Origin: Daphnia carinata
Taxonomy: Eukaryota; Arthropoda; Branchiopoda; Diplostraca; Daphniidae
Reading direction: 5' to 3'
NCBI RefSeq assembly: GCF_022539665.2
Contig: NC_081337.1
Span: forward strand, 8,656,679-8,720,678
Length of the DNA: 64,000 nucleotides
The notes under the pieces were generated by a model. The model was not told the DNA's origin, did no database searches, and was given only the letters and a program-made list of their open reading frames with translations. The translations under genes and the position numbers were made by a program. Shown piece by piece: positions 13,450 through 20,383 of this stretch (position 1 is its first letter; the number at the start of each line of letters is the position of its first letter).

Positions 13450-14809
13450 TTACAATTTAAAAGTTCTTGCATCTTGAAAATGAAAAAAAGGAGGTTTTAG
13501 TTTGATCGGAATGTTGACTGTCGTATTCATAAAAACCTTTTCTTTCGACACTTTGTTCGGTTTGGCGATGGGTGTAACTTTATGCGGTTGAAGGGTGTTT
13601 ACCACATCTTGAATTTCCTCAAGCGAAGAATGCATGGAATAGAGTACTCGTTGGATTCCGCCTTCGTCAACAACTACTCTGTGATCGACGTTTTTCCCCT
13701 CCATTAGATGCCATTGGGTTGTTAGTCGAATCGTGAGCAACTTTTCAGAGTCTTTAAAACATAGCGACTGTTTTTTTGCTGACACCTGAAATTCAAAATA
13801 TGAGACTTATAGCAATATACAGTATATGTCGCGTAGCAATAAGAGTAGTTCTGACCGTGCCTTCACCACACGCGTGAACGCTGGTCGTGTGCTGACGACT
13901 TATGGCGTTTCTTAGGTCAGTCAAATTTTTGTAGATTTTATGTTTAAATTCTGATATGTGAACTTGAATATTCAGTCTCCGATACACTTCAACAAATAAA
14001 AATTCTGCACCAAAACCTCGCCCAGCAAGGGAGAATAATACCTTGTGTTCTGGACTTTTAGAAATCCAGTTACTGACTAAAGCTATAGTCACATCAACAC
14101 TTATTTGTCTGGATGGAAATATTTTTGCACTATCTGAACAAAATGTGCAGTCTAGGTAAACATGATCAATAGTTTTCAGTCCATATTCTGGTCTTGAAGG
14201 ATTTGACATGAAGGCTTGCAACTTTCTGCAATCCCCCTTAGCTATCCTGAAATCACCAGTATAGAGGATAGTGCCAAAAGAACCTTCATATAAAAACCTA
14301 ATATATAAAAAATTTAGTAATTTATGTCCAATGTCATTTGAAGAGGTGATTAAAGGCCCTACATTACACTGCCAGGACAATGGCCAGATGGAATTGTTGT
14401 CACACAAAAAGTTGTGCTCACATTACCGTTACAAGAATCACCAGGAAAATCTATTTTGATGGTATGATTCAATTCCAATGCTTTAAGGTAGCGACCTAGC
14501 TTTGAGTAGGTTGGCCATTCAGTAAGAATTTGTTTTGTTTTTTCACTGCAATAGATGAAGACACCAGGTTTAGTCTGCAGAGCTTGATACAAATCATGTG
14601 AATCCAGTCCTTTCATGTGATCTATGCAAATGCAGATAAAATCTATTAAAAAGGAATGACCATTACCACTATAAAAGGCATTTACCAGCATGACAATGAG
14701 AAAGGAATAAAGCCAGAGATGATTGTACGTCTAGAAAATAATCAACCGATATAAAAGGAATTTCGTCAATCACGCCCTGGAACATCTGGTCTTCGGAATG
14801 CTGTGCCAT
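13450..14809 (-). CDS. DCLRE1C: Artemis (SNM1C) DNA-repair nuclease, short form
   Basis: Artemis is a metallo-beta-lactamase/beta-CASP nuclease that opens hairpins and trims ends in non-homologous end joining. Exons 14686-14809, 14363-14621, 13856-14297 and 13450-13785 join in phase to 386 residues. Motif 2 is FLSHCHADHMKGL (His-x-His-x-Asp-His), motif 3 PSGHCPGSVM, motif 4 ILYTGDFR; then YLDCTFC, and the beta-CASP His in VHACGEG. All metal-binding residues I can check are present, so the enzyme should be active. The protein ends about 60 residues after a region matching Artemis residues around SSYSEIKDFL. The long C-terminal tail of vertebrate Artemis (about 300 residues, contacting DNA-PKcs and ligase IV) is absent. 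SNM1A and SNM1B are less likely, because the N-terminus matches Artemis in length and sequence. Confidence 0.95.
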
Positions 14810-15785
14810 TCTGGTTATTAGCAGTATATTGTTGTCTAGGAATGCTGGTAACCTAGGTTATATAGAGTTCCCAAACCCTTTGGGTTGAGTGATTTAATAT
14901 ATCTGGCTCGAATCGTACATTGCGCAACCTCAAAGTTTCCCTCGAAAACCAATTGCCGCCTGCTATCCTACTACATTGTTGCCAGTCGTTGAAATTAAAT
15001 AATTTTAATTTTATTTTAGTATTTGAGACTTTGTAAATATATTACAAATAAATGGGCATCAGTGACTTGTGAAAAAGAACTTGTTTCATTTTCATTATTT
15101 TATTCAGCTAGCATTACACATATGCCAACTTTCTCACTTCGCTACACACACGGTGACAGTTTTTTCACGCAAATAAAATTAATCTATCTTTCACATTAAC
15201 AAATTTTTTTAAAGAGATGATTAAAGCTCCAAGCATTTTATAATCACAAGATAACATCACCTCAGTTTGGAAAGCTATTTCCCATGCAGCAACCGAGTCT
15301 CAAGATGAACAGTTCATCGAATCTCTAGGCTTCGCATTCTAAAATTCGCCTTTCAATCATCATCGGTAAATGTTCGTCTTGCAACCAAAATCAAGAAAGA
15401 GCTTCATATTGAAAACTTATTAACATGATTAAAAGCAGATTAGACAGAATTGTCAAAATTGCTTACGTAATTTCAAATTCAATTCCTAATCACTAGCTTC
15501 TACCATCTTGACGCGGTAACAGACGAAACACAATTGGACTGCTATTGTGGGCGACTAGCGGAGAAACCTGGAAAATACTAGTGGTGGTAGCTATGTTCAT
15601 ATGCAAAAACACTATCGCCAAATTTCAAAACAAAAAGTATTATTTGGTTTTTAAAAAATTATTATTAAAATAAATAAATAAAATTATGAAAAATTATTTT
15701 ATTTAATTTTAGAAAACAAAATACATTTAAGTATTGTATTAAGTTCAGATTAAGTCTGAATCTTTACAGTACACTGATCAAATTT
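14810..15785. other. Intergenic
   Basis: About 1 kb between the Artemis start and the TSR2 stop. A+T-rich with TAAA-type runs around 15650-15720. It should contain the Artemis promoter and the TSR2 3' untranslated region. No supported gene. Confidence 0.5.
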
Positions 15786-16422
15786 TCAGTGTTTTTTACC
15801 CTTTGATACTGTTACCCAACCATCTTCATCAGGCTCATTTCTAGTTGATTTCCTTGAGGTATCCAAATCTTCTCTTTGATTTTGCAAAGAGCCTTCAAGA
15901 TCATTGTCTTCCTTCAAAGTAGAACTGTCATGATTTGAGGCAGTTTTGGAGAGATGAACAGAGCTGCCTTTAAATTTCTTTAATTCTAAAATGACCTCTT
16001 CTTCTTTTCCATCCTTGATTAACTGGAAGTATTTACACAAGCTCTCCCCCATTTCTTCGAGACTGCCATCTTCACACAAAGTGTTGAATTCATTATTCAT
16101 AAGATCTTCCATGTACTCTGCAACTTCCTGAACCAAAACATTGTCTACAAATATTTTTAAAAATCTTTTAGTGACTCCTCATGAAAGTAAATTGCAAAAG
16201 ACTACCATTTTCTTTAAAAAAATTCTCAACAACAGTTACCATCCATTTTGCTATTTCTCTGCTCTGTGTTCCACCCAACTGGTGCTCCACTGCAAGCTAT
16301 GATAACCAGAAAACAAACTGAATCATTCGAAAAGTTATAATAGGGAAAAATATTCAAAAATATACCTGCAGTGCAGTCCAATTATTAAAGAGAGTTTCCA
16401 CTACTGTCGAAAACAAACTCAT
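15786..16422 (-). CDS. TSR2: TSR2, chaperone of ribosomal protein eS26
   Basis: TSR2 carries eS26 (RPS26) from importins to the 90S pre-ribosome and acts in 20S pre-rRNA processing. Exons 16366-16422, 16206-16296 and 15786-16144 join in phase to 168 residues. The conserved core reads NNWTALQLAVEHQLGG, then KAKW-like IAKWMVTVVE, then a third exon with EYMEDLMNNEF and LCEDGS. An acidic, low-complexity stretch follows, and the family's C-terminal DGWVTVSKGKK tail. I chose the ATG at 16422 because it gives the usual family N-terminus; an in-frame ATG at 16491 would add 23 residues. The gene is head to head with UQCC5. Confidence 0.93.
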
Positions 16423-16609
16423 GCTTGCAAATTCAAGAACATGTGTCACGTTGTCAGAGGTGTAAGCAGACGACGAACAAAATGAAAACATGATCGACAG
16501 TCGGTCAGTACGGAAGGCAAACTAATACACATGAAAGCAAGTTTTTGAGTGAATCGTTTGCTAGGTGTCAGTTGCTGTATTTGTCCCATACATCTTTTCT
16601 AGTGTTTTA
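16423..16609. promoter_or_regulatory. Shared promoter of TSR2 and UQCC5-UQCC6
   Basis: Only 187 bases separate the TSR2 start (16422, or 118 if the 16491 ATG is used) from the UQCC5 start on the other strand. Both genes must be driven from here. I saw no clear TATA box or other named element. Confidence 0.6.
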
Positions 16610-16885
16610 ATGCAGTCAAACAATTTAAGGAATTTTTTGGACAAATGGCCGGGTAAAAAATATCTGGGTATCTATCGATTCCTACCCATCTTCTTTGCAT
16701 TAGGCGCTGCTCTGGAGTTTTCTATGATACATTGGAAAGTGGGATCAACAAATTTCTGTATGTCCTAATTATTAAATAATTGTCCTGTAAGTTATGTTTA
16801 AAAAATTTTTTACTTTACCTCAGATTCTACATTCAAGAAGCACCAAGCAGAAAATTTAGCAAAGAAAGCTTTAGGTCTTGAGTGA
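16610..16885 (+). CDS. UQCC5: UQCC5 (SMIM4), complex III assembly microprotein
   Basis: UQCC5/SMIM4 is a small inner-membrane protein needed for assembly of the cytochrome b part of respiratory complex III. Exons 16610-16757 and 16824-16885 give 69 residues, near the human 70. The conserved middle is PGKKYLGIYRFLPIFFALGA (human PGKQRFGIYRFLPFFFVLGG), which starts the single transmembrane helix; then GSTNFYSTFKKHQAE, as in the human ETFYDVYRRKASE. The start context is poor (T at -3, C at +4). The second exon continues straight into UQCC6 after 8 bases, with no room for a new promoter, so the two probably share one mRNA. Confidence 0.9.
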
Positions 16886-16893
16886 AGAACAAA

Positions 16894-17082
16894 ATGCCAG
16901 CAGGAGTAAGTTTGCCTACATACCTCAAATTCTTTGCTGCTTCTATGCTTGCCATGATGGCAGGATCCCAAACTATCCATGTAATATATCATCCATTGGA
17001 AGGAATGGATATTTTAGTACAACAAGAAATTGAAAGACTGAAGAAAGCACCATTGCAGACCGAAACAAGTAGTAGTACTTAA
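16894..17082 (+). CDS. UQCC6: UQCC6 (BRAWNIN), complex III assembly microprotein
   Basis: UQCC6/BRAWNIN (C12orf73) is a mitochondrial inner-membrane microprotein required for complex III assembly. The 62-residue frame begins MPAGVSLPTYLKFFAASMLA; human BRAWNIN begins MPAGVPMSTYLKMFAASLLA. One hydrophobic segment follows, then a short charged tail. The start codon lies 8 bases after the UQCC5 stop, in another frame, with A at -3. An in-frame TGA at 16879-16881 rules out a fused product by simple readthrough in this frame. UQCC5 and UQCC6 are reported to act together in complex III assembly, so linkage on one transcript would co-regulate partners. Human genes are unlinked. Confidence 0.93.
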   Translation: MPAGVSLPTYLKFFAASMLAMMAGSQTIHVIYHPLEGMDILVQQEIERLKKAPLQTETSSST

Positions 17083-17230
17083 ATAACTGTGTATTTCAAC
17101 ATCATTTGTTAAAGAAAATACATAAAAAACTGTAGGAATGTTTTGTATTCTGCAAGTGGTCAGAATAGCTATTCATATTGTAGATACACAGCAGATAACC
17201 CTGACCAAACCACATTTCCCAAACTTGTAC

Positions 17231-17233
<3 letters not shown>

Positions 17234-17270
<37 letters not shown>
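17234..17270. repeat. T37 run between convergent 3' ends
   Basis: A run of 37 T on the plus strand lies between the 3' ends of UQCC6 (plus) and GMPPB (minus). It could be a mononucleotide repeat or the poly(A) remnant of an insertion; no target-site duplication was recognised. Confidence 0.85.
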
Positions 17271-17274
<4 letters not shown>

Positions 17275-17351
17275 ACAGAAGGAGAACAAGGCACAAAGTA
17301 AAACATGTATCTTAAAAACAAAACAAAAAAATTATGCTTGTAAATTGTAGT

Positions 17352-18749
17352 TCACATAATAATTTGTGGTTCAGGGACAGAGTCAGATATGGCTTTATGG
17401 GGAAGAACTTTGCCTCCATTGATGTAAATCTCATCTTTGACGATGACGTCTTCGCCTAGAACGGTGACATTTTCGAGTCGGACCTGGTAGGAATTCAAAG
17501 GTAAATAGTAATAACCAACGAACTGGTAAATAAAATTTAAAAAATAGACAAGACCAATGACGTTAATTAAACATACCCATCGTCCGACAACACATTTCCA
17601 TCCAACTATGCAAGAGTCTAGCCACGAATGTGATTTGATTGTTGCATCTCGTAGGATAGTACACCGCTTGACGCAAACACCATCTTCGATTACTACTCCC
17701 GGCCCAATAGTTACGTTCGGGCCTATTCGGCAGTTCGCACCAATAACTGCTGTCGGGTCTACTAATGAGTTGCCCACAGCCCCGGGACCCGTGTACAGCA
17801 TAGAAGGGTTTTTTTCACGCACAGATTTCAAGTAAAGAGATGTGCCTGTAATAAAATCCTTAGGCTGTCCAACATCCATCCAAAACCCTTGTAACTCGTA
17901 TGCAAACAATTCGGCTTCATTTGCCATACAGGGAAATACTTCCTTTTCAATACTCATGGGTCGTAACTAAAGTAACTAAAAATTTTGTTATCACTTTTTT
18001 TTTTAAAGCACAATGTTATTACCTCAATGCGCTTCATGATAGAAGGATTAAAGATATACATTCCTGCGTTGATTTTATTGGAGACGAATTCTGTTGGTTT
18101 TTCTACAAACTTTTCGATTCGGCCTTGATCACTGTAGACAACCACACCATATTTGGAAGGTTCCTCCACCTTCGTTACCTAAGATAGATAAATTTAGTGA
18201 TTTATTACATTTTTTTTTGTCGTCAGATAAACGCTTAAGGTGGAAGAAACAGTTGCAATCCTTCATCACACTCACCACTATGGTGCCCTCTTTGCCGTGA
18301 GCCTTATGAAAATCTACCATTTCCTTGAATGGGAAATCACATATGACGTCCGAATTGAGAACGAAGAAAGGTTCATCGCCACAGGCTAGAATATCCTTGG
18401 CTAGCGCCAAAGGACCGGCAGTACCAAGAGGTTCCGTTTCATGCGAAAATATAAGCGTAATTCCCAACTAAATGGCGCGAAAAACAAGGAGTTAAAATTA
18501 AACGGGCAAATTTACTGCTCATACGTTTAAGAATGAGACCTTGTCCGTTTCGGCCCTTAGTTCACTCTCCATTTGCTCAGCTCTATATGAGACAGCCAAA
18601 ACAACTTGAGTGACTCCAGCTTCAAGCAATGCTTCAATCTGATGCATAAGCATTGGTTTATTGGCAAACTCAACTAAAGGTTTGGGTCTACTGAGTGTGA
18701 GAGGGCGAAGGCGTGTTCCATACCCTCCAACCAGAATAAGAGCCTTCAT
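17352..18749 (-). CDS. GMPPB: GMPPB, mannose-1-phosphate guanylyltransferase beta
   Basis: GMPPB makes GDP-mannose from mannose 1-phosphate and GTP, the mannosyl donor for N-glycans, GPI anchors and O-mannosylation. Exons 18525-18749, 18276-18467, 18023-18178, 17577-17966 and 17352-17483 join in phase to 364 residues (human 360). The N-terminal nucleotidyltransferase signature is [13 protein letters not shown] followed by SRPKPLVEF. Then [38 protein letters not shown] and [15 protein letters not shown]. The C-terminal left-handed beta-helix carries [15 protein letters not shown], and the protein ends VPEPQIIM. A 5' untranslated exon probably ends at 19287 (strong GTAAGT donor) and splices to an acceptor just upstream of the start codon. 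The product feeds POFUT1 indirectly, because GDP-fucose is made from GDP-mannose. Confidence 0.97.
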
Positions 18750-20383
18750 TGTGCCGAGCTTTACATCTGTAAAATATGGAGTACATGTAATTTCAACAAT
18801 CAAGCTAAATCAAGTTGCGCGCGAAGTTTAATATAGTTTTGTGGCAATAGCCACCAAACTATATTAAATAAATTACCTTTTCCTCCCATGCTGGTGTAGA
18901 TATTGCTATAAATGCTGAAAAGCACACAAGGAAAAAGCTGATCTAGTTGCGAGAAACATAATACAGGGTACTATATACATGATAGCTACACAGAACTAGA
19001 AACGTGTAAACTATTTCAGATAATGCACTACCAAGACATTTCATTGCCATTATAACAAACTAACACAACTTAGGAAACCCAGTCAAACACATAAACTGAT
19101 GTGCTACGCGGTTCACAGAGCAAGACATGTGAAAGAGAGGTCAAATGAAGCGACTCTTGTCAGGCTTGAGAAATAACGATCCTCTCACCCGAGGTAAGTA
19201 AAGCATGAAATTTCAAACATATATTCGGTATATGACAATATATATACGTTCGGAACTTATTTGGAACGGAGAAACATTTTACTTACGTACAGAAGATGAA
19301 GTGATCTTTTCCAACTGGTTCGTGAAGGAAAACAGTCTGTTTTGCCACGTATTCGATTGATAGTTTGATACGCCTTTCCTCACGTAAGCTTTTTTGACAC
19401 TTCGAAGTTTACACGTAAACTGTTTCTGTAGCCACAGGGTTGCAGACGACACACCACCATCATATATCGATTGCGGATGGAGCGATATGTTAACGTAAAA
19501 GTAGCAAATATTTAAGCAGCGATTCGATCGGTTTCATTTTGAAAAATATTTTTTACTCGTCTGGCTAGTTAAACTGCGGTTGTCCACTGTGCATTTCAAC
19601 TTTTTTGTTCATTTTAAAAAATTTACACTTTCAGTTTGCATGCAGATAGCTGCCATGGGAGCCCATAAATCGAGGGAAAATAATATTGCCAGGCCCTTTG
19701 ATTTATCAAGCGGGAAGCAACATCAGTCTAGAAATATTTTATTTTTGACTCTCTAGTGGGAGCAATGACGTTTCGATCTATTTCTTTATTTCTCATGTTG
19801 TTTGTAAACAACTTCAATGAGAAATAACGGCACGTTTTCTATATTATAGCAAATCGAAAACGTTACAAGTTGGTGGAAATTTCTAATGAAACAATCAATA
19901 CGAGAAAATGTTAAGATAATACTTTCCCTTGACTTCAGTAAAAACGCAAAAAAATTATTTGTCACAAAAATTTCGGAAGATAGGTATAAATAGATTTCGT
20001 TTTGGTTATCACTGATCAGGCGGCCACAAGAATGATGACGTGCAATTCCGCTCTCACAACCATGGTGAACAAACCAACCAAGTTTTAGTTGAATAATTTT
20101 ATTTGTTTTAACCAAGTTTATTTTCAGTGACCATTACTATGACTGACACAGACCGTACGTTCCTTATGAGTAAAAAAATCAGAAAAGTTATTGCCATTGC
20201 CATCTTTACTGTGAAGTGTTTTACCAACAATCGTAATTACTCAGCCGGATCCGACCTTGCATGTTGAGACTGGCAAACTGGTTGGAGAATTTCGACTAGC
20301 CGATAGCCTTCCTGAGATAACTACCAAGAAGAATTAAGCGAAAAATCACTTTACCATTGTACCCCAGGGTTAACCCCAAAACA
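18750..20383. other. GMPPB 5' region and intergenic DNA
   Basis: Includes the probable GMPPB 5' untranslated exon (low edge at 19287) and its intron. A hairpin-forming inverted repeat lies at 18827-18868. No other supported gene; frames near 19786-20337 look random or too short. Confidence 0.5.
18827..18868. repeat. Hairpin: 19-base arms, 4-base loop
   Basis: The arm at 18827-18845 and the arm at 18850-18868 are reverse complements with one mismatch, separated by AATA. It lies in the proposed 5' untranslated intron of GMPPB. Confidence 0.85.

Follow-up and report, generated by a model that had tools for sequence, protein, structure and literature searches.

Two complex III assembly microproteins probably encoded on a single mRNA in Daphnia carinata

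The closest described system is that of Drosophila melanogaster, in which CG32736 (Sloth1, SMIM4) and CG42308 (Sloth2, C12orf73) are reported to share one transcript, backed by a cDNA clone and RT-PCR (Bosch et al. 2022, eLife 11:e82709; PMC9681215). According to the same article, the two frames are separated by a spacer of 5 nt (GCAAA), the start contexts are ACACATG for the first frame and CAAAATG for the second, and reporter mutants support leaky scanning (PMC9681215). The loss of either gene is described as lethal, with complex III defects, and Sloth1 and Sloth2 co-immunoprecipitate (PMC9681215). Paralogy of the two proteins was proposed from a subtle similarity (27%). Furthermore, a similar bicistronic architecture is described for the choanoflagellate Salpingoeca urceolata, the sea squirt Ciona intestinalis and the lamprey, the two genes being separated in jawed vertebrates (PMC9681215). 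The human protein SMIM4, also designated UQCC5 (PMC10199267), and C12ORF73 are reported to be mutually dependent in early complex III assembly (PMC8719881), and BRAWNIN/C12orf73 is described as a complex III assembly factor (PMC7066179).

The words ‘arthropod’ and ‘crustacean’ are missing from the main text of the fly article, and its accession list includes no crustacean (PMC9681215). CG32736 is absent from the main text of a study of conserved fly upstream ORFs that had Daphnia magna among the compared species (PMC2276209). In the open-licence literature, no case of a crustacean UQCC5–UQCC6 pair appeared among the matches listed, judged by title and start of abstract.

Here, we analyse a window of 64,000 nucleotides from Daphnia carinata (contig NC_081337.1), part of which probably encodes two complex III assembly microproteins, UQCC5 and UQCC6, on one mRNA. 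An earlier note on this DNA, made from the letters alone, implied that such a pairing was new and did not mention sloth1–sloth2. This novelty is unsupported: the arrangement has been known from the fly since 2022, and the Daphnia locus is a further instance. The addition made here is one more genome with the UQCC5–UQCC6 pair, together with TSR2 and GMPPB as its neighbours. Its value is comparative; the fly biology and the mechanism are already published. The features of the locus, in positions of the window, are the following:

16423..16609, no strand assigned: presumed shared divergent promoter region of 187 bp, between the predicted TSR2 start (16422, on the minus strand) and that of UQCC5
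16610..16757, plus strand: UQCC5/SMIM4 (sloth1) coding exon 1, 148 nt, with the weak start context GTTTTAATGC; included in the PF15114 match of the spliced product
16645..16656, plus strand: out-of-frame mini-ORF of three codons (M-A-G-stop) within UQCC5, with C at -3 and G at +4
16758..16823, plus strand: predicted UQCC5 intron, GT-AG, phase 1, 66 nt (GTATGT...CCTCAG)
16824..16885, plus strand: UQCC5 coding exon 2, with the stop TGA at 16883-16885; part of the region matched by PF15114 after splicing
16886..16893, plus strand: intercistronic spacer of 8 nt, AGAACAAA, which creates the UQCC6 start context AACAAAATGC
16894..17082, plus strand: UQCC6/BRAWNIN (sloth2) coding sequence, 62 aa plus stop, intronless, in the exon that also holds the UQCC5 stop
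17117..17126, plus strand: variant words resembling poly(A) signals 3′ of UQCC6, AATACA (17117) and CATAAA (17121), as motif matches only

UQCC5 and UQCC6 lie on the same strand, 8 nt apart and in different frames (offset 2), so read-through cannot fuse them. Without splicing, the frame opened by the ATG at 16610 reaches a stop at 16768 after 52 aa, and removal of the 66-nt intron gives a UQCC5 frame of 69 aa which ends with the TGA at 16885. The earlier note had given the ORF coordinates, the 8-base spacer, the differing frames, the T at -3 of UQCC5 and the A at -3 of UQCC6, all of which are as claimed; its placing of the UQCC5 stop and the UQCC6 start in one exon is likewise borne out, this being the second coding exon. 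An intron of this size is ordinary for the stretch, since the two predicted introns of the neighbouring TSR2 gene are similar (69 and 61 nt). Retention of the UQCC5 intron would lead to a truncated UQCC5 of 52 aa. Within the intron, at 16771-16792 on the plus strand, a donor-like GTAAGT (16787) and an ATTAAA (16771) are present. These words could permit alternative splicing or early polyadenylation, again leading to the 52-aa form. Beyond the pair, a motif scan of 17083-17352 found another variant poly(A)-like word, AGTAAA at 17297, and no canonical AATAAA or ATTAAA.

On its left side, the pair is flanked by TSR2 (15786-16422, minus strand, three predicted exons; PF10273, E 7.7e-26). TSR2 and UQCC5 are arranged head to head, with 187 bp between the predicted starts, or 118 bp if the in-frame TSR2 ATG at 16491 is used, and the interval is a candidate shared promoter. 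On the right, a frame at 17352-17957 on the minus strand encodes a GMPPB C-terminal domain (PF25087, E 4.9e-53) and is convergent with UQCC5–UQCC6. A run of 37 T occupies 17234-17270, between the convergent 3′ ends of UQCC6 and GMPPB.

Both protein identities proposed in the earlier note are supported by Pfam profiles. Spliced UQCC5 matches PF15114 (UPF0640), which we take to be the SMIM4 family, with an E-value of 3.7e-34 and 116.9 bits (cut-off 27) over profile positions 2-65 of 67. UQCC6 matches PF14990 (DUF4516), presumably the C12orf73 family, with an E-value of 1.8e-15 and 56.8 bits (cut-off 27) over positions 1-36 of 46, a span that takes in the hydrophobic segment at the N-terminus. 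In genome-wide protein matching, which scored best candidates only, UQCC5 exon 1 (residues 1-51) and the whole of UQCC6 each found one match in the 108,149,354 bases of the species' own genome, namely the one in the window. No relatives of UQCC6 were found when contig collections of prokaryotes and viruses were scanned, an expected outcome for genes of animals, and neither protein has a relative among the solved structures (one match each, E 0.81 and 0.83). For a membrane helix, of which each protein of a sloth1–sloth2 locus is expected to have one, the usual hydropathy cut-off is 1.6. The highest 19-residue means are borderline, slightly below this value (1.53 at residues 19-37 of UQCC5, 1.37 at residues 13-31 of UQCC6), and the membrane segments therefore rest on family membership. 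Both microproteins are predicted to be mitochondrial.

A common origin of the two proteins was also considered. BLASTP produced no alignment of UQCC5 with UQCC6 at E-values up to 100, and their Smith-Waterman score of 23 was reached by 1021 of 5000 shuffles. Paralogy is thus unsupported by these two sequences, as no alignment was found and shuffles reach the score; it is a proposed origin of the pair and no requirement for orthology with sloth1–sloth2.

The same genome holds matches to glycosyl hydrolase family 7, an observation separate from the present locus. Nine of them are distributed over three contigs (C3, C5 and C10), with none in any of 14 control genomes. A family 7 exon of 120 aa on C3 aligns over its whole length with PDB 4xnn (E 2.7e-68), which we take to be a Daphnia pulex enzyme, and the copy on C5 is more diverged. 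These matches agree with a Daphnia-like crustacean as the source of the DNA.

Proximity of reading frames is, in itself, of little significance in this stretch. From 89 plus-strand and 96 minus-strand ATG-initiated ORFs of at least 50 aa, 10 same-strand raw pairs lying 0-30 nt apart were counted in the window; UQCC5–UQCC6 is absent from them because UQCC5 is spliced. Adjacent raw ORFs are common here, and it is gene identity, not proximity, which makes the UQCC5–UQCC6 pair more than chance, since the neighbours are the only ones found in the genome for two families with jointly acting proteins.

The two start codons differ in their surroundings. The UQCC5 start (GTTTTAATGC) is weak, with T at -3 and C at +4, and the UQCC6 start (AACAAAATGC, comprising CAAAATG) is stronger, with A at -3 and C at +4. 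That a CAAAATG second start is common to the Daphnia locus and the fly is suggestive; A-rich contexts ahead of the ATG are common in animals. From start to start, the spliced mRNA would contain two further ATGs, one out of frame at 16645 with C at -3 and one in the UQCC5 frame at 16724 with T at -3. These are the single in-frame ATG and the single short out-of-frame ATG which the earlier note had claimed. As neither has a purine at -3, ribosomes that fail to initiate at the first start could scan on to 16894. The interval 16824-16893 contains no ATG. The small number of intervening ATGs had also been offered as an argument for scanning, and this part of the claim fails: 20,000 synonymous recodings, weighted by window base composition, gave 1, 2 or 3 of them, with P(<=2)=0.63, so that ATGs are not depleted. 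A small ATG number between the starts is accordingly rejected as a mark of selection, two being the synonymous-recoding expectation. Upstream of 16610, ATGs occur at 16482, 16490 and 16531 and would open short uORFs if the mRNA begins before them. The region 16540-16757 showed no stable RNA fold (z-score -0.13; a fold as good or better in 84 of 200 shuffles), and a stable structure around the UQCC5 start was rejected on this z-score. Rfam gave no match at the gathering threshold in 14500-19500.

Taken together, the sequence and the analyses make it very likely that the locus is the orthologue of sloth1–sloth2, expressed as one spliced bicistronic mRNA from which UQCC6 is produced mainly via leaky scanning. 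The operon-like bicistronic pairing suggested in the earlier note thus appears to be the best reading of the sequence, in agreement with the fly. We infer the intron, the transcript, the mode of translation and the avoidance of decay in the following form. One capped, singly spliced mRNA would begin between TSR2 and 16610 and carry UQCC5 followed by UQCC6. Many scanning ribosomes would skip the UQCC5 AUG, which is weak, and begin translation at the more favourable one of UQCC6. The two microproteins of the inner membrane would then be supplied in balanced amounts to the early (cytochrome b) stage of complex III assembly. As the sole intron seen in the coding part precedes the UQCC5 stop, no exon junction would follow this stop. 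With no junction 3′ of it, the UQCC5–UQCC6 mRNA should escape junction-dependent nonsense-mediated decay.

A first alternative keeps both frames on one mRNA but would have ribosomes arrive at UQCC6 chiefly by reinitiation, once they have terminated on the mini-ORF at 16645 or on UQCC5. Reinitiation is favoured by very short uORFs, and the mini-ORF, with its G at +4, is located 35 nt past the UQCC5 start, with 171 nt from its stop available for reloading before UQCC6. However, a long first ORF and a short spacer disfavour the process, and the 69 codons of UQCC5 together with the 8-nt spacer are unfavourable for reinitiation after UQCC5. In the fly reporter, moreover, more initiation at sloth1 was reported to lower the downstream output, which favours leaky scanning (PMC9681215), and we consider reinitiation as the main route unlikely.

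Alternatively, UQCC6 could be translated, additionally or mainly, from a separate mRNA which arises by an internal start in exon 1 or the intron, by skipping of exon 1 or by spliced-leader trans-splicing at 16823. The acceptor at 16823 has a pyrimidine-rich tract, and trans-splicing at this position would leave a 70-nt leader (16824-16893) free of ATG; donor-like words at 16462 and 16787 would also suit a separate mRNA, and spliced-leader trans-splicing is reported from copepods (PMC4664967). In water fleas, by contrast, no report of trans-splicing appeared among the literature matches listed, judged by title and start of abstract, which is weak evidence. The intron itself is just 66 nt long. 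Simple word searches, themselves weak evidence, found TATA on neither strand across a scan of 500 bases (about 16400-16900), and the only plus-strand initiator-like word, a weak guide as well, sits 5′ of UQCC5 (16568), with none in 16610-16893. Since the fly orthologue is also described as a single transcript (PMC9681215), a separate UQCC6 mRNA seems quite unlikely. Even so, the assertion in the earlier note that UQCC6 cannot have its own promoter nearby was too strong, as UQCC5 exon 1 or the intron could hold one. Very improbable, finally, is the reading in which the ORFs are adjacent yet belong to separate close-packed transcripts, or in which one of them is a decayed copy. The intronic ATTAAA at 16771 could in principle end a UQCC5 mRNA early, but the 8 nt from the UQCC5 stop to the UQCC6 start offer no space for a usual 3′ UTR and a promoter; against decay, both frames are intact, their scores are far above the family cut-offs and no second copy was found.

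The preferred reading, a bicistronic UQCC5–UQCC6 mRNA with leaky scanning, can be placed among known systems. The pri/tal, Sarcolamban and wurmchen1/2 genes resemble it in that several small proteins are made per mRNA, although the proteins and tissues differ; wurmchen is reported to encode two proteins that belong to one complex and are not redundant with each other (PMC11475943). Human SMIM4/UQCC5 and C12orf73/UQCC6 are alike in being described as jointly acting complex III assembly factors (PMC8719881, PMC7066179), but their genes are unlinked, on chromosomes 3 and 12 (PMC9681215). The cooperation of unlinked human orthologues, to which the earlier note had pointed, agrees with the reported chromosomal positions (PMC9681215) and mutual dependence (PMC8719881). 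In Salpingoeca urceolata, Ciona intestinalis and the lamprey, the likeness consists of linked sloth1/sloth2 as described by the authors (PMC9681215). A broader hypothesis, which we regard as doubtful, is that the operon-like unit predates the split between animals and choanoflagellates and became unlinked in jawed vertebrates. It would have preserved a design for leaky scanning, in which a weak first start is followed by CAAAATG at the second and introns are confined to the part 5′ of the first stop, which avoids decay; in this lineage, the three-codon mini-ORF would additionally tune the UQCC5-to-UQCC6 ratio.

The fly remains the closest counterpart. Its spacer is 5 nt in contrast to 8 nt in Daphnia and differs in sequence too, and its proteins measure 79 and 61 aa compared with 69 and 62 aa; the fly transcript is demonstrated, whereas that of Daphnia is predicted from sequence. 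Fly and Daphnia share the two families, their order and strand, the difference in frame, and the weak first start followed by CAAAATG at the second. If the transcript is confirmed, Daphnia would provide a crustacean case beside fly, sea squirt, lamprey and choanoflagellate, and would support an old operon-like pairing lost in jawed vertebrates.
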